From: Thermoplasmata archaeon
GTDB taxonomy: Archaea; Thermoplasmatota; Thermoplasmata; Thermoplasmatales; GCA-001856825
Length of the DNA stretch: 64,000 bases
Assembly: GCA_021816725.1 (NCBI GenBank)
Contig: JAKAXD010000001.1
Span: 124,001-188,000, forward strand
Reading direction: 5' to 3'
In this document: positions 19,237-35,409 of the stretch, piece by piece
Position numbering within the stretch: the stretch's first letter is position 1
Layout of the letters: each line of letters opens with the position of its first letter
Program-made: the position numbers and the translations under genes
Notes under the pieces: generated by a model
What the model was told of the DNA's origin: nothing
What the model saw: the letters and a program-made list of their open reading frames with translations, nothing else
Databases searched by the model: none

Positions 19237-19536
19237 TTATAAGTTCAGAATCTCAGATAGATATGTCTTCCATCCTTGGTCTATGGCATCCTGCAGCTTA
19301 TCATCCGCTTCCTCTTTTCCTGCTTTCTTGCCTTTTGATAATAATTCAATCAGTTTTTCCTTACTGCCACTTTTTATAAGTACGGCATCAGTAAACTTGA
19401 TATTTGGGTCAATTTCTCTAAGATTCATACTGAATTTCATTTTGTCTATCTTGTTAACGGGACATTCATTGCATTCCTTATGAACGTCATTATTCCCTAC
19501 TGTGAACAGTCTAAAGTAGGGATACTTGGTTAACAA
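19237..19536 (-). CDS. Hypothetical protein
   Basis: 99-aa ORF with coding-like composition; no recognised domain. Confidence 0.4.
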   Translation of the reverse strand: MLTKYPYFRLFTVGNNDVHKECNECPVNKIDKMKFSMNLREIDPNIKFTDAVLIKSGSKEKLIELLSKGKKAGKEEADDKLQDAIDQGWKTYLSEILNL

Positions 19537-20291
19537 GCAGTCGTAAGTGTGCCGCCATGTTGAAGGTGGTTAGCACGGTCGTCTGCCTTTATAACGAGGG
19601 AATTGCCATCAAGAGCTTCCCCCCTCTTCATTCTCCAGTTCAGGTAGTCGGCAATGTATCTGGCTCCCTCTGGAGGGACCATTGTGAGATACCTCCTCCT
19701 TGTATTGCTCAGCTCCTGTCTCACAGCAATCACTGCGGGCAGCTTCTCGAAAACAACTTCGTTATCCTTGATCTTCAGGTCCTTGATGTCCCTTATCCTC
19801 AGTCCGTCCGAACCGTCAACATTACCCATCACCTCCGGCCTTATGCCGCTGAATGCAGCCAGAGCAATCATTGCGCGTGTTCTCATTGGAGCTCTCCGGA
19901 GCATCATTGCCACCTCTTCCTGTGTGGGAGGTGATTCGTCTGCAACAGAATCAGCGAGGCTCGCATTCCTGATCTTTATACCCTGCATTACCCCCTTCGT
20001 CCCCTTCCACGCACATAGAGAGTTGAGAACCTTCTTGAACCTCGCTATGTAAGATCCCCGGTATCCCTTATTCTCCATCCTGGTCACGAAATCAACAAAG
20101 TCATCCCGAAGTTTCCTTGACTTCGCGTCCTCCAGTATCCTTTCAGGAGTGGTATGATTGAGCTCACAGTAGAGGCCCAGCCTTCTGACGTACACCTCCG
20201 CTGTGTTTTTGCTCCCCTGCAGCAGATTATGATACCAGCTCGCCGTTGGTTTTGCCGTTTTGATGTATGAATATTTGTCCGCGGATGCCAT
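19530..20291 (-). pseudogene. Truncated tyrosine recombinase/integrase
   Basis: From MASADKYSYIK, parallels the two complete integrases (TAEVYVRRLGLYCELNHTTPERI..., AAFSGIRPEVMGN) but ends before the RPYVLRAYF...Y catalytic region. Confidence 0.75.
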
Positions 20292-20345
20292 GAATTCAGG
20301 CAAAAATGGTATATTTAAGGATTGAGATTCGACCACCCTAGGGAT

Positions 20346-20358
20346 ACGGGCCCGAGGG
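20346..20358. repeat. Distal att core of the 13.7-kb element
   Basis: acgggcccgaggg identical to 34049-34061 and to the tRNA-Lys 3' end at 41067-41079. Confidence 0.85.
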
Positions 20359-20422
20359 TTTCCGACCGTAATATAGTGTAGATAACTATATATCTGTCTA
20401 TGTATTTTGATAGTCGATAGAA

Positions 20423-21730
20423 ATGGGGAAGGAGAAGTACCAGGGTTTACGAGACAATAAGGAAATTGCAAGGTGGTATGGCGATGTTGGAAGAGGATCA
20501 AAGATAACTGCTGACGTTTACATGAGAAGATTAGGTGCTTTCTGTGAGAACGTGGGAAAGGATCCAATTAAATTGCTGAAGCTTAAGGATAAAACTCTAG
20601 CAGACCTGATGACTGATTACGTTTCAGACCAGGAAAGAAAAGGTAGAGCAGGAAGTTATGTTAAGTCCACTCTAAAGGCCGTAAGGTCTTGGCTAGCTTT
20701 CAATGGGATAAAACTCCCAAGGAGAGTAAAGATAATGGGAGTTGAAGATACCCCGACACTCAGAAATGAGAGGGTGCCGACACCGGAGGAATTGAAGCAG
20801 ATATTCCTAGCCGGAAATTCAAGGTCAAGGGTAGCCTGTGCTTTGATGGCATTTTCAGGATTGAGACCCCAGGTCCTTGGAAATTACCTAGGCACTGATG
20901 GACTGAAAGTTTCTGATATTCCCGATATGCGAATAGGGAGAGAGGAAATAAAGTTCGATAAAGTTCCGGCCAGGGTAATAGTCAGGAAAGAACTGAGCAA
21001 GGCCAGGATCGAGTATTTCTCCTTCATTGGTCCGGAGGGATGTTCATATCTGGAGGCGTACTTCAAGGAAAGGATAAGCCAGGGTGAGGACATAGGACCA
21101 GAAACCCCAATATTGACACCTTCAAAGTTTGCCCTGAGAAAGAGAAGGTTCATTCGCACTTCCAAGGTTGGGGAACTCATAAGAGAGACTATCAGAAAGG
21201 CTGGGCTGAATTCAAGGCCGTATGTACTGAGGGCATACTTTGACACCAGGTTGATGATGGCGCAGGATGAGAGACTGATAATCAGGGATTACAGAACGTT
21301 CTTCATGGGCCACAAGGGAGATATTGAGCATACTTACACAACTAATAAAGCCCTTTCAGGTGAAACAATAGAGAGCATGAGAGAAGCATACAAAAGGGCT
21401 ATGAAGCTAGTGGAGACGGAGAAGAAAGGCATTCCTGAGGAAGATCTCGCCAGGAAGCTGAGAGAGTTCGCCATAATGATGTTTGAATCTCAGTTTGGGG
21501 TCAGGCTTGACGATAACGAGAAGGAAAGGCTTTACAGTTTGGGCATTGAGGAATTCCAGGACGAATTGAGGAAAATGACAAGCAGCAAGAAGGCGGAGAT
21601 AATCAATAACGGACATAAGCAAAAGCCAATCGCTCTAAGCGAAGTTGAAAGCTATATAGAAAGGGGATGGGAGTTTGTAGCAGCTCTGCCAGGTGATAGG
21701 GCAATAGTTAAGCTGCCTGACCGTCTTTAG
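20423..21730 (+). CDS. Tyrosine recombinase/integrase
   Basis: AFSGLRPQVLGNY, RPYVLRAYFDTRLM, FMGHKGDIEHTYTTNK catalytic-region motifs; starts 65 bp after an att core. Confidence 0.9.
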   Translation: MGKEKYQGLRDNKEIARWYGDVGRGSKITADVYMRRLGAFCENVGKDPIKLLKLKDKTLADLMTDYVSDQERKGRAGSYVKSTLKAVRSWLAFNGIKLPRRVKIMGVEDTPTLRNERVPTPEELKQIFLAGNSRSRVACALMAFSGLRPQVLGNYLGTDGLKVSDIPDMRIGREEIKFDKVPARVIVRKELSKARIEYFSFIGPEGCSYLEAYFKERISQGEDIGPETPILTPSKFALRKRRFIRTSKVGELIRETIRKAGLNSRPYVLRAYFDTRLMMAQDERLIIRDYRTFFMGHKGDIEHTYTTNKALSGETIESMREAYKRAMKLVETEKKGIPEEDLARKLREFAIMMFESQFGVRLDDNEKERLYSLGIEEFQDELRKMTSSKKAEIINNGHKQKPIALSEVESYIERGWEFVAALPGDRAIVKLPDRL

Positions 21731-21737
21731 TCATAAT

Positions 21738-21808
21738 TGAAAGAAAAGTGCCTTCAAAATTAGGCTTTTCAGGCATGATTAGCTTAAAAGATAGAATCTA
21801 TCCAGGCA
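21738..21808 (+). repeat. About 71-bp direct repeat, copy 1
   Basis: tgaaagaaaagtgccttcaaaattaggcttttcaggcatgattagcttaaaagatagaatctatccaggca, near-match at 23151-23220. Confidence 0.8.
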
Positions 21809-22009: not shown

Positions 22010-22747
22010 TCAGGAATCCTCTATCATGTTCAGGCACCTCATTATAACTTGCCTTACATCACCCAAGTGTGGCTTTATTCCATCAATTTCGAAGTGCCCT
22101 GGATACCGTGCCGTTTCATAAGGTCTCAGAAACTCATAAAGGATGATTGAAACAATCATGGACTGGATTATAGGCAGTAAGCTTTTACCCCACGAAAGCA
22201 GTGCATCACCATTTATATTTTTTCCTGAAGGCTTAGTTAATTGCCTGATTCTATGTTTTAAAATTTTAAGCCTCTGGTTTAATTCGTCTTTGAGTGGACC
22301 CTTTCTAGTAGCTTCAAGTAAGCTATTTGCAATATTGATTAACTCATTCACTTCTTTGTCTGTAGGATTTAATTTGACCTTTACTTTTTTTGCCCTTTCT
22401 ATAGTTCTATCAAAATTTGTATATCCTAGGGCTTTAAAAAATATAGAAAATATAGGAGTATCTAAAATTGCTTTGAGCTGGTCTAAGAACTGGTCCTTGT
22501 ATAAGTGGCCATAATCCTTTGGGGTTTTTATCGGAATATTAATTTCCTTGTAAAGTGTGCTTCTTTTTTCACTCGATGCAAAGCCTATCTTTAGTGAGGC
22601 AGCTTTAAAGGCTTTCTCTGAAGCTTGTTGGAGAAAATAAAGAGACCGTGCATATTCTTGATTTTCATGATTGCTCTCTGAATCTCGTAAATCTAATCTA
22701 GCGCTTTTTATCCACTCTTTGTAGCTATCAACAGTCATCTGGAGCAA
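22010..22747 (-). CDS. HEPN-domain-like protein
   Basis: YKEWIKSARLDLRDSESNHENQEYARSLYFLQQASEKAFKAASLKIG ... DYGHLYKDQF pattern resembles HEPN helices. Confidence 0.55.
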   Translation of the reverse strand: MLQMTVDSYKEWIKSARLDLRDSESNHENQEYARSLYFLQQASEKAFKAASLKIGFASSEKRSTLYKEINIPIKTPKDYGHLYKDQFLDQLKAILDTPIFSIFFKALGYTNFDRTIERAKKVKVKLNPTDKEVNELINIANSLLEATRKGPLKDELNQRLKILKHRIRQLTKPSGKNINGDALLSWGKSLLPIIQSMIVSIILYEFLRPYETARYPGHFEIDGIKPHLGDVRQVIMRCLNMIEDS

Positions 22748-23150: not shown

Positions 23151-23220
23151 TAAAGAAAAGTGCCTTTACAATCAGGCTTTTTCGCAACGATTAGCTCGAA
23201 AGGTAGAATCTATCTAGGCA
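23151..23220 (+). repeat. About 70-bp direct repeat, copy 2
   Basis: taaagaaaagtgcctttacaatcaggctttttcgcaacgattagctcgaaaggtagaatctatctaggca. Confidence 0.8.
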
Positions 23221-23412
23221 CTATCTTAAAACTTTGATATCCACCTGGAAGAAATGCTTACGACTATTCTACTCGGTTAAGTTAGGGTTCTGTTAAGATA
23301 TCGGGACATAGTGGGAATCTGAAAATCCGTTAAGTGTCGGGACATGTAAGGAAAGAGGTAACGGGATAAGTATTTAAAATAGATAACCATTAATTTAAGG
23401 AGCCAATTTTTC

Positions 23413-24032: not shown

Positions 24033-25358
24033 ATGAAATTATCATTAGTTATTATGGAGATTAATGCAATTTATGAAGGCGATAATTTAGGGATAATGAG
24101 TAAGTTTCCAGACAAGAGCGTTGATCTCATTTACGCTGACCCTCCCTTTTTCTCTAACAAACAGTACGAAGTGATATGGGATGACAAAGCAGAGATCAGA
24201 AGTTTCGAAGACAGGTGGGAAGGCGGCATCCTACACTATATCACCTGGATAGAACCTCGATTAAGGGAATGCCATAGATTACTGAAAGATGCGGGTGCTT
24301 TATATCTCCACTGTGACTGGCATGCAAGCCACTATCTGAAGGTTGAACTTGACAAGATATTCGGAAGAGAGAACTTCAGGAATGAGATCTCCGTGAAGAG
24401 AATCAGGAAGAACGTCCACGAACGTGAAAAGGTTAAGAGTCTAAACACTGCCTTCGATTCAATCCTATTTTACGCCAAGAGCGATAAGCATTTTATTACA
24501 CCACCGATGAAAGAAGAATACAGGCCGGCTAGATGGCACGCTTTCGATGCCAATGGTATTAGGACTGGAATGGATTATGAGCTGTTTGGTCACAAACCAA
24601 AGAGGGGTAACCACTGGAGATGGACTAAGGAAAGGGCAGAGCAGGCAATCAAGGAGGGGATACTAAGGCCAAACCCATCAAGCGGTAAGCCCGAATATCT
24701 CATTCCGGAAAGTGACCACACGATTATAACGAGTGTTTGGGATGATATTCCGGCCTATTCATTTGAAAGCGGTTATCCTACGGAGAAGAGCCCGGAATTG
24801 CTGGAACGGATTATAAATATGTCAAGCAAGAATGGAGATATAGTGCTAGACCCTTTTTGCGGTTGTGGCACGGCTATCGTGGCTTCGCAGAAACTGAAGA
24901 GAAACTGGGTTGGGATTGATATTAGCCCAACGGCCTGCAACCTGATGAGAAAGAGGATGATCCATGAATTTAGAATCAGTCCACAAGTGATCAGGGGAAC
25001 AGTTGATGTGAACTATGTTAAGAAATTGGAGCCTTTTGAATTCCAGAACTGGGTGGTCACGAACAAATTCTTTGGGACTGTGAGTAAGACGAAATCAGGT
25101 GACTTCGGCATAGACGGACTTACACCACAGGTTGCAGGCGGTTATCCAATTCAGGTCAAGCAGAGTGAAAATGTTGGTAGAAACGTCATAGACAACTTCG
25201 AAACGGCCATGAGAAGAATGAATAAGAAGAAGGGATATGTTGTAGCTTTCTCGTTCGGTAGAGGGGCAGTAGAAGAAGCAGCTAGGGCAAAGAATCAGGA
25301 AGGATTGGAGATCATCTTAAGAACTGTCAATGACCTGATTGACGGAAAAATAGAATGA
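24033..25358 (+). CDS. Site-specific DNA methyltransferase fused to a PD-(D/E)XK-like (Mrr-type) nuclease domain
   Basis: LIYADPPFFSNKQYEVIWDD (DPPF), VLDPFCGCGTAIVASQKLKRNWVGIDISP (AdoMet motif I), C-terminal SGDFGIDGLTPQVAGGYPIQVKQSE resembling the D...(x)VKQ nuclease core. Confidence 0.85.
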   Translation: MKLSLVIMEINAIYEGDNLGIMSKFPDKSVDLIYADPPFFSNKQYEVIWDDKAEIRSFEDRWEGGILHYITWIEPRLRECHRLLKDAGALYLHCDWHASHYLKVELDKIFGRENFRNEISVKRIRKNVHEREKVKSLNTAFDSILFYAKSDKHFITPPMKEEYRPARWHAFDANGIRTGMDYELFGHKPKRGNHWRWTKERAEQAIKEGILRPNPSSGKPEYLIPESDHTIITSVWDDIPAYSFESGYPTEKSPELLERIINMSSKNGDIVLDPFCGCGTAIVASQKLKRNWVGIDISPTACNLMRKRMIHEFRISPQVIRGTVDVNYVKKLEPFEFQNWVVTNKFFGTVSKTKSGDFGIDGLTPQVAGGYPIQVKQSENVGRNVIDNFETAMRRMNKKKGYVVAFSFGRGAVEEAARAKNQEGLEIILRTVNDLIDGKIE

Positions 25359-25654
25359 GAGCATCTCTATCGTTAAAACATACCCGCCCCCCAAAAACTT
25401 AGGAGGGGCCTTTGAAGGGCAGGCATAACCTAGATTTGGGGCTTAAATAAATAGACTGCCTGTAAGTTAGAAAGTAACTTAAATGCCTTAGGAGTAAGAA
25501 AATGAAGGGCAGGCAGCATGTCAATATTCAGAGGAATAAATAGTCATTTTGGTCAATTACACGCTGATAAAACTTGGAGTTCCAAACATTGCAAATATTT
25601 ATCTTTATATTCTGTTAAGCAGTGTTAAAAATTATGTGTAGAAGACAATCTGTA

Positions 25655-25823
25655 GAACACTGCTTCTCAAGTGATGCTCAAGTGATTCTCGGTGATGCTC
25701 TGATAACAGGGTCATGTTCTGAGAACTGATTACTATACGACTTAGTTAATAAAGTTAACAGGGCCGTCCTTAACCGATGCTCTGAGTGCTTCTCTAGCAC
25801 CTCAGAGAAGCACCCTGTTATCA
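25655..25823. other. Candidate structured RNA or iteron region in module A
   Basis: tctcaagtgat/gctcaagtgat/tctcggtgat/gctc tandem units; TGATAACAGGG (25701-25711) complementary to CCCTGTTATCA (25813-25823); local hairpin 25780-25807. Confidence 0.45.
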
Positions 25824-26187
25824 CTGAAAGCAAAACTTCTCTTTCCTATAGGTTCAAGACAAAGGATAGGAGCCATTATTTAACAAACTTAACAAGGGGA
25901 TATTTTCCATACATCACTGGGAACAGACTAGGACCGTGGTATGTGTCTAAGGACATAGAGCTGTCCTCAATATTTACTTACTTCACCTGAATAATCTTCT
26001 GCTGGATCCTTTGAGGCCTATAAGAACACGCCACGTTAACTGTTAAGAACACCGCACAATCCTTGTTGGCAATATAATTTATGTGCATGAAAGCTGATGT
26101 TTTTCCCCATGTATAGTTTTGCGGTGCCTGATGGAAGTGGTAAAAGCGACAGCGATAGCACAATGCGGACGGAGGGCGAATTTTGTC

Positions 26188-26320
26188 AGATGCCCCAATG
26201 ATTAACCCACATCAATAGAAGTACCAATCCTCCTAGTGTCAAAGAGGTAGGAACGTAGGCGAGGATGTTCCTAGTTCGTTCTGCCCTGAGTCTCTCCCTT
26301 CTCCTAATCTCTAAAAGAAA
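26188..26320 (-). pseudogene. 3' remnant of a paralogue of the HTH/TM gene at 28224-28685
   Basis: Minus-strand translation RRRERLRAERTRNILAYVPTSLTLGGLVLLLMWVNHWGI* parallels REMERTRKEERDRSILESILVILLLIGLIFLLMWANHLNI*; no start codon, 5' part missing. Confidence 0.65.
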
Positions 26321-26351
26321 AATTGAATAACTGGTAAATCAATTTCATTAC

Positions 26352-26756
26352 ATGGAGAAGAGCAATGAATTCAGTGAACCTCCTATTCTACAGATTAAAA
26401 CGAATTTGGATATTCCTCTGACCGGCCGAGTAACAATTCAGATTTACAAGTTGATAGTTTCGGGAAGCGTCAGCCAAGCCAATATAAGAGCTCAGAAAGG
26501 GAGTTTGCAGGCCGTCTTCCTCGTTTACCTTCTTCTTCCAATGGAGGCTGCATTATTTGGTAATATTTTTGAGAAGTTATTCAGATACTTCTCAAGAATT
26601 CTACGGGATGAAACAAGGAAAGGGAGGGCACTTCCCCCAAGCATTGAAATAGAGTACGTAAGACCAGATGGAGAAAAAATGACAATAAAACTTACGGGGG
26701 AAATTGAAGACTTTGAAAATATTTTTTTATTCTTGACAAAATCTGGATTGAAATGA
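26352..26756 (+). CDS. Hypothetical protein, first gene of a two-gene cassette
   Basis: 134-aa ORF whose stop overlaps the next start by 4 bp. Confidence 0.65.
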   Translation: MEKSNEFSEPPILQIKTNLDIPLTGRVTIQIYKLIVSGSVSQANIRAQKGSLQAVFLVYLLLPMEAALFGNIFEKLFRYFSRILRDETRKGRALPPSIEIEYVRPDGEKMTIKLTGEIEDFENIFLFLTKSGLK

Positions 26757-27511
26757 AAAATGAAGGAAAATTGAATAAGATATCCTCAATACTGATAGCC
26801 TGGTTTACCCTCAAGCGTGCCTGGCTGATATATGCTATTGCATTAGTTGCATACGTGGCATCAGTTCTGTTGAGTCATAATGCTCTTTTGGTTTCTTTGG
26901 GCACTACTGCAATGACAATTTTTGTTCTTTTCCTAATAATGATGCAAAGTAATAAAGAGGTGAGAATAGGACTGGAAAAGGAGGCCAAAACCTTCGAAGA
27001 GAGTCTGAAACTAGTAACGTCCGAACTGAAGAAAGTCTCAGAGGCTACCCTAAAGTCTGCTGAGAGCATTTCGAGGGTTGAGGTAGGTATCTCGTCGATG
27101 GCGGGCAAAACAACTGAATTAGTTAGCATTGAGCAGGATAAGGAAAATGAAAGAACTAGTCTATTGAAACCGAGAATTTTTGCATCTGTATTCATAGATA
27201 AATGGGGTTGGTTTGGACTTTACAAACATTATTACATCTCAATATCTAATATCGGTGGAGATGCAAGAGATTTAATCTTATATTTCCCCAGAGCGGGAAT
27301 TAAGATGCAAAGTTCGAATCAGTCGCTAAAACGAGGGTCCCCGTGGAATATTGACTATGGCGATATTGCCGTTTTTAAGATTTCTAATCCTTTGGATGTT
27401 GAGATTTCACTGTATGATATGGAAGGTAGAAACTACTATGGAAATGGTGCGATATATTCCGACAAGGGACAGATCACAGAAATTATTACGAAACGTCAGA
27501 AGGTGTTATAA
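26753..27511 (+). CDS. Membrane protein: two N-terminal TM segments, coiled-coil, C-terminal soluble domain
   Basis: LIYAIALVAYVASVLL and ALLVSLGTTAMTIFVLFLIMM hydrophobic segments, then KEAKTFEESLKLVTSELKKVSEATLKSAESISRVE heptad-like region. Confidence 0.7.
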   Translation: MKNEGKLNKISSILIAWFTLKRAWLIYAIALVAYVASVLLSHNALLVSLGTTAMTIFVLFLIMMQSNKEVRIGLEKEAKTFEESLKLVTSELKKVSEATLKSAESISRVEVGISSMAGKTTELVSIEQDKENERTSLLKPRIFASVFIDKWGWFGLYKHYYISISNIGGDARDLILYFPRAGIKMQSSNQSLKRGSPWNIDYGDIAVFKISNPLDVEISLYDMEGRNYYGNGAIYSDKGQITEIITKRQKVL

Positions 27512-27562
27512 GTACCAAATGACGTATTCAAATTTTGCACTTGGTTATTGATTTAATGGACT

Positions 27563-28290
27563 TACTCGCCCTCCAAAGACCTTAGGAGTATGAAAATGAA
27601 GGGCAGGCAGCAGGTCAACCTTCAGAGGAATAAATAGTCATTCCAGTCAATTACACGCTGATAATACTTCCTCTTATTTTGTTATAGAATATTTAAAGCA
27701 TTTTTATCAGTTACTTTCAAGAGCATAGACTAAAGCCAATCCGCAGAACACTGCTTCTCAAGTGATGCTCAAGTGATTCTCGGTGATGCTCTAAAATCAG
27801 GATTATGCTCTACAAACTACGGATAATTCATAGGCTTGACAGTACCTGATAGAATAGTCCCCTACTGATGCTCAGGTGATTCCCTGACGAGTCCGAGCAT
27901 CACTCTATGATTATTGTCAATACCCAAAGTTGAACTCTGTGTATTGAAACACTGTACTGTCCATAGGCTTGACAGTACTTGATAGAACTACTTTTAAGTA
28001 GTATTTTGGCCGATTATCTGGGCCAACTAAAGGTCATGCCCTCGGCTCTGTCAAGACATCGCACAGTCCAAATTGACGAATCAATTCATGTGCGTAGAAG
28101 TTAACGATTTATCCCATGTATAGTTTTGCGGTGCCTTATGTGAGTGGTATAAGCGATAGCGATAGCACAGCGGGCATATGTGTATATGTCTTGTCCGCCT
28201 CAAGTTTACATAGTTCCCTTCTGTCAGATGTTCAAATGATTGGCCCACATCAGAAGAAAGATTAAACCTATTAACAATAATATGACTAAA
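27563..28290. repeat. Duplicated non-coding module, copy B
   Basis: Homologous to copy A; runs into the 3' end of the intact minus-strand gene 28224-28685. Confidence 0.85.
27746..27903. other. Candidate structured RNA or iteron region in module B
   Basis: 47-bp block identical to module A; GTGATGCTC (27783-27791) complementary to GAGCATCAC (27895-27903). Confidence 0.45.
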
Positions 28291-28685
28291 ATGCTTTCAA
28301 GAATGCTTCGGTCCCTTTCTTCCTTCCTGGTTCTTTCCATTTCCCTCTTGCTTCTCACATATAGATTGCGTGACTCTGCTTCATTTATCTTAATCACATC
28401 ACGGCCTTCCGGCAATACCCGATCGGCCTTGCTCTGATTCGGAATGTTAGCATTAGGACTTGAAATGGGTTCTGTCCTTTCTATTATGCTGCTCTGTATG
28501 GTTTTGAATATTTGACGAACCTTTTCATGCGTCATGATAATGGAATATGACTCTCTCAAAACGTTGGAGATTTCCCGATAGCTCAATCCCCTTGAACGAA
28601 GATCCTCGATTATTTCCTTGACCTGGTCCTTGTCCACTCTCTCACCTCTTTGCTCCCAGGTCTCCTTGGACAGTGACGATTGCAT
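28224..28685 (-). CDS. HTH protein with a C-terminal TM helix
   Basis: IIEDLRSRGLSYREISNVLRESYSIIMTHEKVRQIFKTI HTH-like region; SILVILLLIGLIFLLMWANHLNI terminal TM. Confidence 0.65.
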   Translation of the reverse strand: MQSSLSKETWEQRGERVDKDQVKEIIEDLRSRGLSYREISNVLRESYSIIMTHEKVRQIFKTIQSSIIERTEPISSPNANIPNQSKADRVLPEGRDVIKINEAESRNLYVRSKREMERTRKEERDRSILESILVILLLIGLIFLLMWANHLNI

Positions 28686-28944
28686 GCTTCATCACCAGGA
28701 TGCTCTGGCCTGTCCTTGAATCCATCAGGATAATGTCATACTGCCCGAAGCTGACAAGCTTTCCCGTTATCGTCTTGTTGTTCACCAGCTCCAAAGTTAG
28801 GATCCTTCCTATAAGCTGCTTGCCGAAGTTGTCGATCTGCCCTGGATAGATAGTCTGATACCTAAAGTTTGGTACTGATTTTTCCGAATCGGTGCCATTC
28901 GAATTTGCAAATTCCTTTCTGGTTGCGTCTAAACTCTCAGTCAT
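28642..28944 (-). CDS. Sm/Hfq-like RNA-binding-fold protein
   Basis: IGRILTLELVNNKTITGKLVSFGQYDIILMDSRTGQSILVMKHAIVTVQGD resembles Sm1 and Sm2 motifs, with an Hfq-like KHAI. Confidence 0.65.
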   Translation of the reverse strand: MTESLDATRKEFANSNGTDSEKSVPNFRYQTIYPGQIDNFGKQLIGRILTLELVNNKTITGKLVSFGQYDIILMDSRTGQSILVMKHAIVTVQGDLGAKR

Positions 28945-29064: not shown

Positions 29065-29604
29065 TCATTCTTCATTGCCTCCGTTATCTATTGATTTTAA
29101 AGGAGATTGAGGGCTAAGACTACTTACTACACCTTTTGAGTCCATCATCTCTTTAAAGTGAATAGCTGAAGACGTTTTCCGAATGGACTTCATAGGAAGA
29201 CGTCTCCTTTCTATCTCCTCACCGGAAAGTTGTTTTTTCTCCGGATGATTCAATATCCATTTCCTTTCCTTGTCTGAATACCACTTCTCAATATCCCTGA
29301 TGGTGTCAGGCGGTTCCGGTATTCCCTCTATGTCTGATCTCATCACGATATTGCGATTCAACATATTGAAAGAAAAGATGTCGTCTCTCCCACGCCTCTT
29401 ATTCCTGGTTGTCCTGGCTATCCTCTTCTGTGTCCTTTTGAATTGCAGGCCTGCAAATTCCCTATTCTTGCAGACATCGTCAAGCTCGCTTTCTTCAGGG
29501 CACCACAGCAGTTCTTTCAATCTAGGGTCCAGAGGGCACAAGTTAGCTGAGCAGCTATCAAAGAACTTGCAGCTCTCAGGTCCTATCATTTCATTTTCAT
29601 TCAT
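29065..29604 (-). CDS. Hypothetical protein
   Basis: 179-aa ORF in a compact co-directional block. Confidence 0.55.
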   Translation of the reverse strand: MNENEMIGPESCKFFDSCSANLCPLDPRLKELLWCPEESELDDVCKNREFAGLQFKRTQKRIARTTRNKRRGRDDIFSFNMLNRNIVMRSDIEGIPEPPDTIRDIEKWYSDKERKWILNHPEKKQLSGEEIERRRLPMKSIRKTSSAIHFKEMMDSKGVVSSLSPQSPLKSIDNGGNEE

Positions 29605-29899
29605 GTTTATCGCTCTCCTTCTCGTTAGTCTGCAGAAAACTCACCTCAGGATAGAAGGCAAAACCTCCGAGCTGTGTGAGTGGGATCTTCCTCTTTTTGC
29701 CCGTGATATTCTCGGAATAGAGGGAATCGAAATCGTGGTAATCCCTAGGTTCCAGGATGGTGATCCCTGATGTGTCGTAACCTAGAAGGAATCCCTTGAC
29801 TGCCCCTCCAATAGGTCTATAGACCTTGATTCGTGACCCATAGGCAACCGTGACGATGCCGTTCTTGTAGGGCAGAACTATCATTGGTCTATCATTCAT
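29597..29899 (-). CDS. Small protein, possibly a second Sm-like fold
   Basis: YGSRIKVYRPIGGAVKGFLLGYDTSGITILEP ... GKKRKIPLTQLGGFAFY has an Sm-like strand pattern. Confidence 0.4.
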   Translation of the reverse strand: MNDRPMIVLPYKNGIVTVAYGSRIKVYRPIGGAVKGFLLGYDTSGITILEPRDYHDFDSLYSENITGKKRKIPLTQLGGFAFYPEVSFLQTNEKESDKHE

Positions 29900-29901
29900 T
29901 C

Positions 29902-30177
29902 TTAATCACTCCTCGTCAAAAAATAAGGCACCATGAAAGAGAAGAAACTCTCATGGGCCTCCAAATATCTCGAAGGAACTGGAACAGCATGACCGGAAGG
30001 AGATTTTGATTCTTGGTTCGGCTTACTGCTCCTTGCCCTTCCATTCAGATTGAAACACTGAGCTGGGCCTAATAGCTCGTAATGGTAGAATCTGATGCGG
30101 CTTGAAGTGTCCTCATAATCGATGACTTTGACAAATTCAAGTGGCATTATGATCCCTCCTGATTTGTTGGAATACAC
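29902..30177 (-). CDS. Hypothetical protein
   Basis: 91-aa ORF overlapping the end of the ATPase gene; later start MPLEFVKVIDYED is likely. Confidence 0.45.
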   Translation of the reverse strand: MYSNKSGGIIMPLEFVKVIDYEDTSSRIRFYHYELLGPAQCFNLNGRARSSKPNQESKSPSGHAVPVPSRYLEAHESFFSFMVPYFLTRSD

Positions 30178-32144
30178 TCCTTTTCGTTAGGATCCCATGT
30201 TTGGCCATTAGGACATGGTAACTCAAGAAAACCTTTCTCAATGTACTTTTTAGCTTCTACTACTGGGAATTTTGATAAGTTGCCTTTTTGATAAGTGTAT
30301 TTTCTGAAACTGAAACTCTCCTTCACCTTGAAATATTGCCAATCATCTCCTTGTCTATTTTTTTGATTAGGTGTATTTTCTGGTGGTACATCCGGTACAT
30401 CTGGTACACTTTTCTTAGCCTTTGTACCACTTGTACCACTTGTACCGCTGTTATATACGTCTATGTCATTTTGTTTTTGATATATCTTCTCCAGCTGATA
30501 GGTTGCAGACACAACATACTTTTTAAATTCCCTGTCAAGTCTCTTAGGGTCGTGGATAAGGACCAGTCCCCTATACTTTTTCCCTTCAACTCTTTCTTGG
30601 TCCTTAACAGTTTGCCCCAACCCTCTCCAATATCGAGCTATTTCACTACTGGAATACGCATTTCCAAGGGCTTCCGATATAATCTTAAGAGTAAGTGGGT
30701 AGATAATTTCTTCTTTATCAACCTGCTTTTCAAGGTCAATGCGAAAATCTGTTCCATCCAGTATTAGTTCTTTGGCTTCAATTATTGCGCCGTAAATAAC
30801 GCTAAGGATCAATCCTGTAGGCGATGATGATCTTTCTTCAACCAGTCTCTTATCAATTTCCTTGGCAATCTCTAATATATCATCCAGAAGGCTTGGTTCT
30901 TCCTCACTCAATGCGGATAGAATCAGAAATGCTTCCTTCACCCTGAAAGACTGAATGTCCTTCATTGTGATTTTGGAAGGTATCTTGATTGTCCCTCCAT
31001 ATATCTTTGCTAGATGCCTCAATCTCCAGAGAAGAAGCTTCCTTTGAATCTGCCTCCCTCTTTCAATCCATTCTGGTGGTGGTATGAGGTCAATGTCCTT
31101 CGTGGTCTGCTCAGCTCGCATGGCAATAGTCCTAGAATTTACTCCGTCATCGTTGTATGCCTTTCTTGTTGCAACGATAGTATTCCCGAAATCTACCCAA
31201 AGCTCAACTTTGTCCTTTTCCGAAGAATATCTGGGAATCACTGTTCCCGTAGCCCTCGCATTGAGGTATTCAATGAACTCGCTTGAATCGCTGTCATTTG
31301 CTAAATCAGCTTCGTCAAGTATGAGCGTTCCTTGCCATGGTTCTATTGCCCTGAATATAGTGGGAACTTTCGTTGTTTTAAGAAAGAACATCCCCCTATA
31401 GACGAGCATTCTCATCACAGTCAAATTTCGTCTCTTACCAGATTCGCTAGTGCCGGTGATACGCAATATAGATGCGTACTTCTCAATGTTCCCTTCAAAA
31501 ATTTCTCTGTTTATATGAGTGGCAAGCGCAATACGTATCCATACTTTCATGATTGGTCCTTCGTTAACGTGGTCGTAAAGCTCTGAGAAACTTTCCATTT
31601 CTCTTATGAGGTCGGAAGTGCTGCCGTACTCTTCTACACCATCAGGTAACGTCAGTGTCTCAATGAGCTTACTATCAACTGCTCTGGGCTTTATTTTAAG
31701 CCCATTCTCATTGAGTTCCGCTTTAATTTCCCAAGCTTCCGGTTCGGGCGTGTATATCAAAAAGGCGGCTCCCTTATCAGAAATATAAATTTCCTCAGCA
31801 ATCCTTCCATCTTCGAATCTATGTGTTGTTTTGAAAATTTCGCTTTCTGAGCCTTTCTTATTTTTATCTATAATGTCTTTCGTCAGTTTTGTATTCCGGA
31901 TTTTGTCGTTATCCGATGGAGCAAAGAACTTGCCATGTTTTGTTAAAATTGACTTTGCTTTTCTAAGGTCTGCAGCTGTTTTAAATTCTTTTGTATTGAT
32001 ATAAGTTAACGTTTCTCGTTCCTCAGTTGGTAAGCCATTCCACTCAAGAAGATGCCGGATTGCTCCGATTACAATATCCCGATCAGATTTGATTCCAGGA
32101 TCAGAGAGAAATCCTTTATCGGGCCCTCCTGTGTCGTTTGTCAT
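30147..32144 (-). CDS. Replication-type P-loop ATPase (helicase/primase-like)
   Basis: ILRITGTSESGKRRNLTVMRML (Walker A), GTLILDEADLANDSDSSEF (Walker B), sensor-like GNTIVATRKAYNDDGVNSRTIAMRAE. Confidence 0.65.
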   Translation of the reverse strand: MTNDTGGPDKGFLSDPGIKSDRDIVIGAIRHLLEWNGLPTEERETLTYINTKEFKTAADLRKAKSILTKHGKFFAPSDNDKIRNTKLTKDIIDKNKKGSESEIFKTTHRFEDGRIAEEIYISDKGAAFLIYTPEPEAWEIKAELNENGLKIKPRAVDSKLIETLTLPDGVEEYGSTSDLIREMESFSELYDHVNEGPIMKVWIRIALATHINREIFEGNIEKYASILRITGTSESGKRRNLTVMRMLVYRGMFFLKTTKVPTIFRAIEPWQGTLILDEADLANDSDSSEFIEYLNARATGTVIPRYSSEKDKVELWVDFGNTIVATRKAYNDDGVNSRTIAMRAEQTTKDIDLIPPPEWIERGRQIQRKLLLWRLRHLAKIYGGTIKIPSKITMKDIQSFRVKEAFLILSALSEEEPSLLDDILEIAKEIDKRLVEERSSSPTGLILSVIYGAIIEAKELILDGTDFRIDLEKQVDKEEIIYPLTLKIISEALGNAYSSSEIARYWRGLGQTVKDQERVEGKKYRGLVLIHDPKRLDREFKKYVVSATYQLEKIYQKQNDIDVYNSGTSGTSGTKAKKSVPDVPDVPPENTPNQKNRQGDDWQYFKVKESFSFRKYTYQKGNLSKFPVVEAKKYIEKGFLELPCPNGQTWDPNEKECIPTNQEGS

Positions 32145-34116: not shown

Positions 34117-35409
34117 ATGACTGTCAAGGAGAAATATAATTTCCTTCTAGATAACGAAGACGTTAGGAGATGGTCCGATAACGTGAAAGCAGGGTCTCCC
34201 ATTACCGGAGAAGTCTATCTGAGAACACTAGGGCTATACTGTGAATTGCAGAATACCAGTCCGGAGAAGATAGTGCGTGATGCAAAAGAAGGAAAGCTGA
34301 AAAATGATTTCCTGGACTTCGTTAGGAAGATGGAGAAAGAAGGGAAAGCAGGTTCTTACATAGTGCGATTCAAGAAGGTATTGTCCTCGTGGATAAGATT
34401 CAATGACATTCCGTTAGACTTCAAGTCCGTTAAGATCAAGGATGCTTTCAGGAATCCAACTATCGAGAATGAGAGAGTTCCTAGCAAAGAGGAGCTGTCC
34501 AAGATAATAAGAGCATCCACATTGAGAGGGAGGTCCTCAATTTCACTGATAGCCTTCTCAGGATTGAGAATAGAGACGATAGGGAATTTCAAAGGTAATG
34601 ATGGACTGGTGATTTCTGACTTGCCAGAAATGAGGGTATCTGACGGAAAGATCGAATTTGAGAAAGTTCCGACAATCGTTAAAGTCAGGTCCACACTGAG
34701 CAAGGCAAGGCATGAATACATCACGTTCTTGCCAAAAGAGGGCACAACATACCTCAAAGAGTATCTTGAATCCAGGATGGCTAACGGTGAGAAGTTAACG
34801 GACAGTTCCCCACTGATCACACTCGAAGGACCTGAGAATATAGTCCATGAAAGAATGAGAACTCAGCTAGTATCCAGGGAGATAAGAAAGGCGACCAGGA
34901 AATCGAATTTCCAATGGAGACCATACGTATTGAGGGCATACTTCTCAAGTGCCCTGGATGTATGCGAAAATAAGGGCCTGGTATCTCACAACTGGAGGGA
35001 ATACTGGACAGGACACAAGGGAGACATTTCTGCTAGGTATTCAACAAACAAGAAACTAACGCCTGACAAGATTGAGGAAATGAGGTCAACTTACCTGAAG
35101 TGCGTTCCGTATATAGAGACGGAGAAGAAGGAGATAAGCGAAGAAGAAAAGGAGAAATGGAAAGTAGAGTTCAAGAGGGAATACCTGAAGCTATTCTTTG
35201 ACGACAAGGAGATAGACGACAACAAGCTGCTTGAATTACCCACTGAGGAAATGCAAAAGAAGATCAAAGAGAAAATGGGTATGTCACTAAATAACGGCCA
35301 TTCCCAGAAGGTGATTCCATTGAAAGAGGTCAGGGAATACATCGAGAAAGGATGGGAATTTGTCCAGGGGATAAGCTCTAAGGAAGCAATCGTAAGGATC
35401 CCAAAGTGA
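34117..35409 (+). CDS. Tyrosine recombinase/integrase
   Basis: AFSGLRIETIGNF, RPYVLRAYFSSALD, WTGHKGDISARYSTNK; C-terminal NNGHSQKVIPLKEVREYIEKGWEFV shared with the 20423 integrase. Confidence 0.9.
   Translation: MTVKEKYNFLLDNEDVRRWSDNVKAGSPITGEVYLRTLGLYCELQNTSPEKIVRDAKEGKLKNDFLDFVRKMEKEGKAGSYIVRFKKVLSSWIRFNDIPLDFKSVKIKDAFRNPTIENERVPSKEELSKIIRASTLRGRSSISLIAFSGLRIETIGNFKGNDGLVISDLPEMRVSDGKIEFEKVPTIVKVRSTLSKARHEYITFLPKEGTTYLKEYLESRMANGEKLTDSSPLITLEGPENIVHERMRTQLVSREIRKATRKSNFQWRPYVLRAYFSSALDVCENKGLVSHNWREYWTGHKGDISARYSTNKKLTPDKIEEMRSTYLKCVPYIETEKKEISEEEKEKWKVEFKREYLKLFFDDKEIDDNKLLELPTEEMQKKIKEKMGMSLNNGHSQKVIPLKEVREYIEKGWEFVQGISSKEAIVRIPK

Follow-up and report, generated by a model that had tools for sequence, protein, structure and literature searches.

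In the plasmid centromeres P1 parS and F sopC, a cluster of repeats lies just past the 3' end of the gene for its binder, a protein of the ParB type, and specificity varies between related plasmids. The repeats of the module analyzed here, within a window of 64,000 nucleotides from a Thermoplasmata archaeon (contig JAKAXD010000001.1, positions 124,001 to 188,000), likewise lie directly after the 3' end of the gene for a presumed binder, but neither a ParA-type ATPase nor a ParB was found here, and the sequence of the units and their layout differ from those of parS and sopC. Another described system is that of plasmid R388, for which the part of the report used here presents StbA as a DNA-binding protein acting on clusters of 9-bp direct repeats (stbDRs) with spacers of 2 nt, equivalent to a period of 11 bp, and providing plasmid stability without a required motor (PMC3098194). 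The units of the module are similarly placed 11, 11 and 10 bp apart, whereas the sequence TTGCATCAT is a point of difference between the module and the stbDRs (PMC3098194). In the same part of that report, R388 is a bacterial conjugative plasmid with its stbDRs around the stbABC promoter, unlike the module with its converging 3' ends, and no membrane helix is mentioned for StbA, in contrast with the HTH protein of the window, the two proteins being likened by description (PMC3098194).

The combination of an N-terminal HTH with a C-terminal membrane-binding part is found in TubY of type III partition systems (PMC7762940), and the window protein resembles it in pairing an N-terminal HTH with a putative membrane part at the C-terminus. 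However, TubY is MerR-like, has an amphipathic tail and works together with TubZ and TubR (PMC7762940), whereas the tail of the window protein is hydrophobic and neither TubZ nor TubR was identified here. For the element as a whole, a parallel is offered by the pT26-2 family of integrated archaeal plasmids, which combine a conserved core with a variable region and in which replication modules are often replaced (PMC6972569). The element considered here is integrated too, and the origins of that family have been sought in repeat-rich intergenic DNA, but the family has been described from Thermococcales and Methanococcales, with no conserved origin consensus reported (PMC6972569). By function and layout, we set the module beside both StbA-stbDR and parS, like which it may work. 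We do not assign it to any of the canonical partition types, because no motor NTPase of the ParA, ParM or TubZ type was found among the backbone proteins scanned with Pfam, a scan that covered the small ORFs in part.

Composition and distribution of the module

The window stretches 25381-26320 (copy 1) and 27563-28290 (copy 2) share collinear, conserved non-coding blocks with diverged DNA between them, as stated in a preliminary description of this DNA. The blocks form four repeat families (table 1) and their homology is far above chance (BLASTN E 1.7e-45 and 1.3e-21). Two details of that description proved exact, namely the identity of 47 out of 47 bases between 25655-25701 and 27746-27792 and the invariant 23-mer CCCATGTATAGTTTTGCGGTGCC, present at 26106-26128 in copy 1 and at 28113-28135 in copy 2; each module does start shortly after a plus-strand stop, 23 bp past that at 25358 and ~52 bp past that at 27511. 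The picture of a conserved, block-structured non-coding unit at the cargo junctions of an integrated element is retained. The view that the unit is non-coding throughout applies to the two parts, A and B, of the module but not to the right end of copy 1 (about 26192-26329, ~140 bp), which encodes, on the minus strand, the C-terminus of a broken second version of the gene at 28224-28685, hereafter called the HTH-membrane gene. Since it ends in this truncated gene, copy 1 is a relic of another backbone and has no clean cassette border.

Table 1. Coordinates of the module, its repeats and neighboring features (window numbering unless a locus is named)
Feature	Position	Strand	Remarks
Repeat family, copy 1/copy 2	25481-25575/27575-27669		89%
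Repeat family, copy 1/copy 2	25642-25727/27733-27818		86%
Repeat family, copy 1/copy 2	26049-26162/28056-28169		78%
Repeat family, copy 1/copy 2	26181-26231/28219-28269		75%
Part A, copy 1	25381-25575	+	~195-bp non-coding, directly after methylase gene
Part A, copy 2 (right portion only)	27575-27669	+	89% to copy 1
Part A or its first 45 bp elsewhere	L011 9022-9180; L012 8430-8572; L013 5074-5114; L014 167-211
Part B, copy 1	25598-26162	+	iteron-bearing; 83% to copy 3 over 565 bp, BLASTN E 8e-161
Part B, copy 2	27690-28217	+	iteron-bearing module (alignment)
Cluster 1, copy 1	25661-25700	+	four units: 25661, 25672, 25683, 25693; within 47/47 patch
Cluster 1, copy 2	27752-27791	+	four units: 27752, 27763, 27774, 27784
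Cluster 2, copy 1	25775-25812	+	two direct units, one inverted
Cluster 2, copy 2	27866-27902	+	two direct units, one inverted
Direct repeat 1, copy 1	25742-25760	+	partner 25876-25894, 134 bp away, 15/19
Direct repeat 2, copy 1	25876-25894	+
Direct repeat 1, copy 2	27829-27854	+	partner 27962-27987, 133 bp away, 25/26
Direct repeat 2, copy 2	27962-27987	+
Conserved 3' block, copy 1	26049-26162	+	holds the 23-mer at 26106-26128
HTH-membrane gene remnant, right edge of copy 1	26192-26329	-	last 46 residues; 54% aa to sister-element protein, E 5e-11
Two-gene cargo between copies 1 and 2	26352-27511	+	ORFs of 134 and 252 aa
HTH protein with C-terminal hydrophobic helix	28224-28640	-	ORF to 28685; candidate unit binder
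Hfq/LSm-like protein, conserved backbone gene	28642-28944	-	PF17209 E 2.7e-5, below gathering score
Counterparts of Hfq/LSm-like and second small protein	L010 6360-6659 and 7321-7623
665-aa backbone protein	30147-32144	-	no Pfam family; relatives in 13 other genomes
Unit R	21701-21808 and 23152-23233; L010 10744-10864; L067 3855-3971
Window-type integrase 3' end (...IVKLPDRL stop) after other-type integrase	L010 10830-10864; L067 3945-3971
Putative chromosomal neighbors of elements	L010 12435-15175; L069 14139-16736; L070 6008-6520

The module is a composite of part A and part B, each with its own distribution. Part A was found in two related genomes (84% over 160 bp in L011 and 85% over 144 bp in L012); in G008 and G010 its neighbors are a winged-helix-like gene and a methylase-like gene, names that were read from their sequence. 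Part A, or just its first 45 bp (CGCCCCCCAAAA..TTAGGAGGGG..GGGCAGGCA), also occurs alone in other genomes of the genus. Part B has a third copy in the same genome (G000:C17:426475-427039), which lies in a second integrated element (L010, hereafter the sister element) with the order P-loop protein, primase-like protein (so labelled by appearance only), 99-aa protein, 185-aa protein, Hfq/LSm-like protein, HTH-membrane protein, module, cargo and tyrosine recombinase (PF00589, E 3e-26). The gene order of the window element mirrors this backbone. All three copies are flanked by genes whose 3' ends converge on them, so that the module is not the promoter region of either neighbor, and they lie at or next to the final gene of the backbone operon (its remnant in copy 1). 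Because copies 2 and 3 occupy the same backbone position and copy 1 adjoins a truncated backbone gene, part B belongs to the backbone and not to the cargo.

A sequence-profile search with the 190-bp block across 117 genomes of the order retrieved three copies, all in this genome, and no fourth copy of part B; BLASTN against the own genome and its relatives gave no part B copies beyond these three, and the module had no match in plasmid and phage collections or in a scan of a genome-contig collection. The best foreign profile match (in G112, E 0.005 per genome) has as its neighbor a gene resembling that of serine hydroxymethyltransferase and was dismissed as chance. The LSm-bearing elements of G001 and G005 have different genes and DNA at the place of the module, which is not detectable there. 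The comparisons below thus concern three homologous copies from a single genome of ~79% completeness. Copies next to a variety of cargo genes, which the preliminary description suggested looking for, did not turn up in the 117 genomes. Only part A lies beside other genes, in two related genomes.

Arrangement of the repeats in part B

The basic element of part B is an 8-bp unit of the approximate form TG[AC]T[GT]CTC (with one variant CGATGCTC and one TGATTCCC), of which there are seven in copy 1, seven in copy 2 and six in copy 3. Its exact form GTGATGCTC occurs six times in the window, five of them inside the two modules, with 0.39 expected in 64 kb. The units are grouped in two clusters of conserved geometry: in all copies, cluster 1 measures 32 bp from first to last unit, cluster 2 follows at a distance of 82 bp and its inverted unit ends 25 bp further on, while the direct units of cluster 2 are 12, 11 and 12 bp apart in copies 1, 2 and 3, respectively. 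In copy 1, cluster 2 includes a perfect 10-bp inverted repeat, GTGCTTCTCT/AGAGAAGCAC. Cluster 2 lies between the two members of a longer direct repeat, at a distance from each other of 134 bp in copies 1 and 3 but 133 bp in copy 2. The repeat sequence of copy 2 is unlike that of copies 1 and 3, yet the two members match within each copy. The direct-repeat scores of copies 2 and 3 were reached by none of 300 dinucleotide shuffles; that of the best direct repeat of copy 1, taken alone, was reached by 19/300 and is not significant.

Block-specific conservation, as envisaged earlier, is seen in the alignment of copies 2 and 3, in which the spacing is kept (as partly expected from plain homology with few indels) while 28/69 columns agree in the DNA between the clusters. 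The units of copy 3 are all TGCTTCTC, those of copy 2 mostly TGATGCTC, and this combination of kept spacing and changed repeats is the pattern expected of sites tracking a changing DNA-binding protein. In copy 1, the patch containing cluster 1 is identical to copy 2 (47/47) vs 35/47 to copy 3, and its flanks are copy 3-like (35/43 just before it and 154/172 at 25819-25990), as if the units of the neighboring module had been copied into copy 1.

A descent of the copies from decayed genes, or their nature as functionless neutral duplicated DNA, seems to us scarcely credible. Copies 1 and 3 do share an open frame of about 85 codons, the copies are few and the array of copy 1 may already be a relic; however, the mismatches that separate copies 1 and 3 are spread evenly across the codon positions (30/26/26), without a third-position bias, so that a protein-coding gene in this common frame was rejected. 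Moreover, the adjacent HTH gene has changed more than the non-coding DNA (89% identity between copies 1 and 3 over 25810-26162, with the adjoining HTH remnant of copy 1 at 64% in nucleotides), and block conservation and spacing are kept between copies 2 and 3.

Beyond these homologous copies, the corresponding position in an element of G010 contains a tandem of two 10-bp units, one inverted unit and a pair of 20-bp direct repeats at a distance of 168 bp (0/300 shuffles); a 67-aa ORF overlaps one of the repeats there. The repeat architecture across elements is suggestive but not universal, because of this ORF overlap and because no significant repeats were seen at that position in the elements of G001 and G006.

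The HTH-membrane protein and the reading of part B

The HTH-membrane gene, the 3' end of which abuts the module, probably starts with a GTG near 28640 that aligns with the ATG of its counterpart in the sister element. Its Pfam matches are weak, to generic HTH, and its AlphaFold model (mean pLDDT 69, with confident ends) combines an N-terminus of three helices (pLDDT about 80-88) with a disordered linker and a long C-terminal helix; a fold search with this model gave no match below E 0.25, with generic small HTH domains among the best. The gene and the module diverged together, since the HTH-membrane proteins of the window and the sister element are 41% identical in amino acids, vs 92% for the LSm-like and 80% for the 179-aa proteins, an unusually fast divergence. 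A second small protein, encoded at 29597-29899, has a Sm-like pattern by eye and no Pfam match. The 665-aa backbone protein has relatives at the same operon position in other elements, a position that suggests a helicase or replication role.

In all three copies, the non-coding DNA next to the backbone genes holds short direct repeats in clusters, as in iteron-type sites, and they adjoin the gene of an HTH protein, a candidate binder that would make the site centromere-like. We infer that part B is bound by protein and contributes to maintenance. Part B is probably a cis site of the element backbone to which protein binds; the chance that it is also centromere-like, with the HTH-membrane protein serving it, is about even. 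The best overall reading, in which we place middling confidence, is an element-specific iteron-type maintenance site, centromere-like or, less likely, an origin, in agreement with the replication or partition site that was one option of the preliminary description. A multimeric protein would read the two clusters of 8-bp units at their fixed spacing together with the direct-repeat pair ~134 bp apart, and the likeliest reader would be the protein of the adjacent gene with its HTH and hydrophobic C-terminal helix. By binding there, it would hold the excised or replicating element at the membrane, forming a centromere-like or incompatibility site with no motor ATPase. As a counterpoint, a membrane-bound HTH protein could be an ordinary regulator.

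The module might instead be the replication origin of the element, its units and direct repeats binding a backbone initiator such as the 665-aa protein or the P-loop or primase-like proteins of the sister element. Direct and inverted repeats are indeed present, and archaeal plasmid origins are sought in repeat-rich intergenic DNA beside the backbone operon (PMC6972569); but the module lacks AT-richness (its GC of 0.41 is like that of the other gaps), genes converge on it, G-C skew passes from positive to negative across it (which, as the AT skew shows, may be due to gene direction alone) and its fast-diverging neighbor is the HTH-membrane protein, not the putative replication protein. We therefore regard an origin as rather unlikely.

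An improbable alternative is that the module encodes a long, structured non-coding RNA, to which the Hfq/LSm-like protein might bind and in which the inverted unit would form a hairpin; structured RNA was also among the earlier proposals and is not sustained by our results. A TATA-like sequence lies upstream of cluster 1 in all copies, the LSm-like gene is nearby and the pairing of the inverted unit survives two double changes that distinguish copy 2 from copies 1 and 3, but such pairing would also be kept in a dyad protein site. Compared with shuffles, the folding of copy 2 is mildly better (z -2.1), whereas that of copies 1 and 3 is not (z -0.9 and -0.3), nor does the conserved 3' block (z -0.6, 0.4 and -0.3), and the covariation term of the consensus is just -0.9 kcal/mol. 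Rfam has no match in the module (a lax threshold gave three chance-level matches, all outside it), and the elements with an LSm gene in G001 and G005 lack a detectable module.

Cargo, unit R and probable recombination between backbones

In G008, a relative of the 252-aa cargo protein from between copies 1 and 2 is encoded at L011 10413-11144 (BLASTP E 5e-14). The gene at 24033-25358 joins a DNA methylase (PF01555 E 8e-43) to a restriction domain of the Mrr type (PF04471 E 3e-7) and is likely a single-protein restriction-modification cargo. Related integrases are encoded at 20423-21730 and 34117-35409, with a further partial integrase at 19530-20567 that was recognized by translated-sequence similarity and has weak DNA matches. 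A second duplicated non-coding unit, R, lies where an integrase gene has its 3' end, and R and a partial copy of it flank a HEPN-domain gene (22010-22747; PF05168 E 3e-8). Its shared motif GTAGAATCTATC[CT]AGGCA (GATAG.. in the first copy) is possibly an attachment or terminator sequence. At L010 and L067, R follows integrases of another type, with the 3' end of the window-type integrase just past their stop, suggesting that the integrase gene was replaced there, with the junction near its 3' end. From translations inspected by eye, the elements of three genomes seem to have similar chromosomal neighbors (genes for a small membrane protein and an MCM-like protein), and a shared insertion locus is possible.

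The cargo between the two module copies, the similar duplication of unit R around a cargo gene and the presence of part A beside restriction genes in two other genomes could be taken as signs of a recombination site for the exchange of cargo cassettes. We consider this very improbable, for copy 1 runs into a truncated backbone gene and has an unclean border, copies 2 and 3 lie at the same backbone position, no scatter of copies appears in the 117 genomes and shared homology alone suffices for such exchange. Clean identical sites at many loci, as in integron attC or plasmid dif sites, were not found; there are a gene remnant and three copies only. The earlier claim that the units mark cargo junctions stands as a description, but that of a dedicated device driving cassette exchange does not, homology of the backbone being the likelier cause.

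Most likely, a second, related element that brought along a module and an HTH-membrane gene of its own would have recombined into or beside the first, producing the duplication and leaving copy 1 with its truncated gene as the displaced relic. Successive recombination between related elements, with the shared R and B sequences as homology, would explain the cargo between the R and B copies as well as the truncated gene of copy 1, and such recombination between related backbones probably left the cargo between copies as a by-product. Going further, the maintenance site may be part of a motor-free, membrane-tethered system of segregation or incompatibility, in which a tail-anchored HTH protein and an iteron array of fixed geometry change specificity together and related elements displace each other's module, leaving cargo between old and new copies; this extension is doubtful and we offer it tentatively.

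In the literature we found no description of the replication or segregation of integrative elements in this archaeal group. The module provides a concrete DNA target, together with a candidate binding protein, for element maintenance, and comparing its three copies amounts to a natural experiment, with the spacing kept and the recognition sequence changed. It would also account for the gathering of restriction, HEPN and membrane genes as cargo, namely via recombination between shared backbone sequences.
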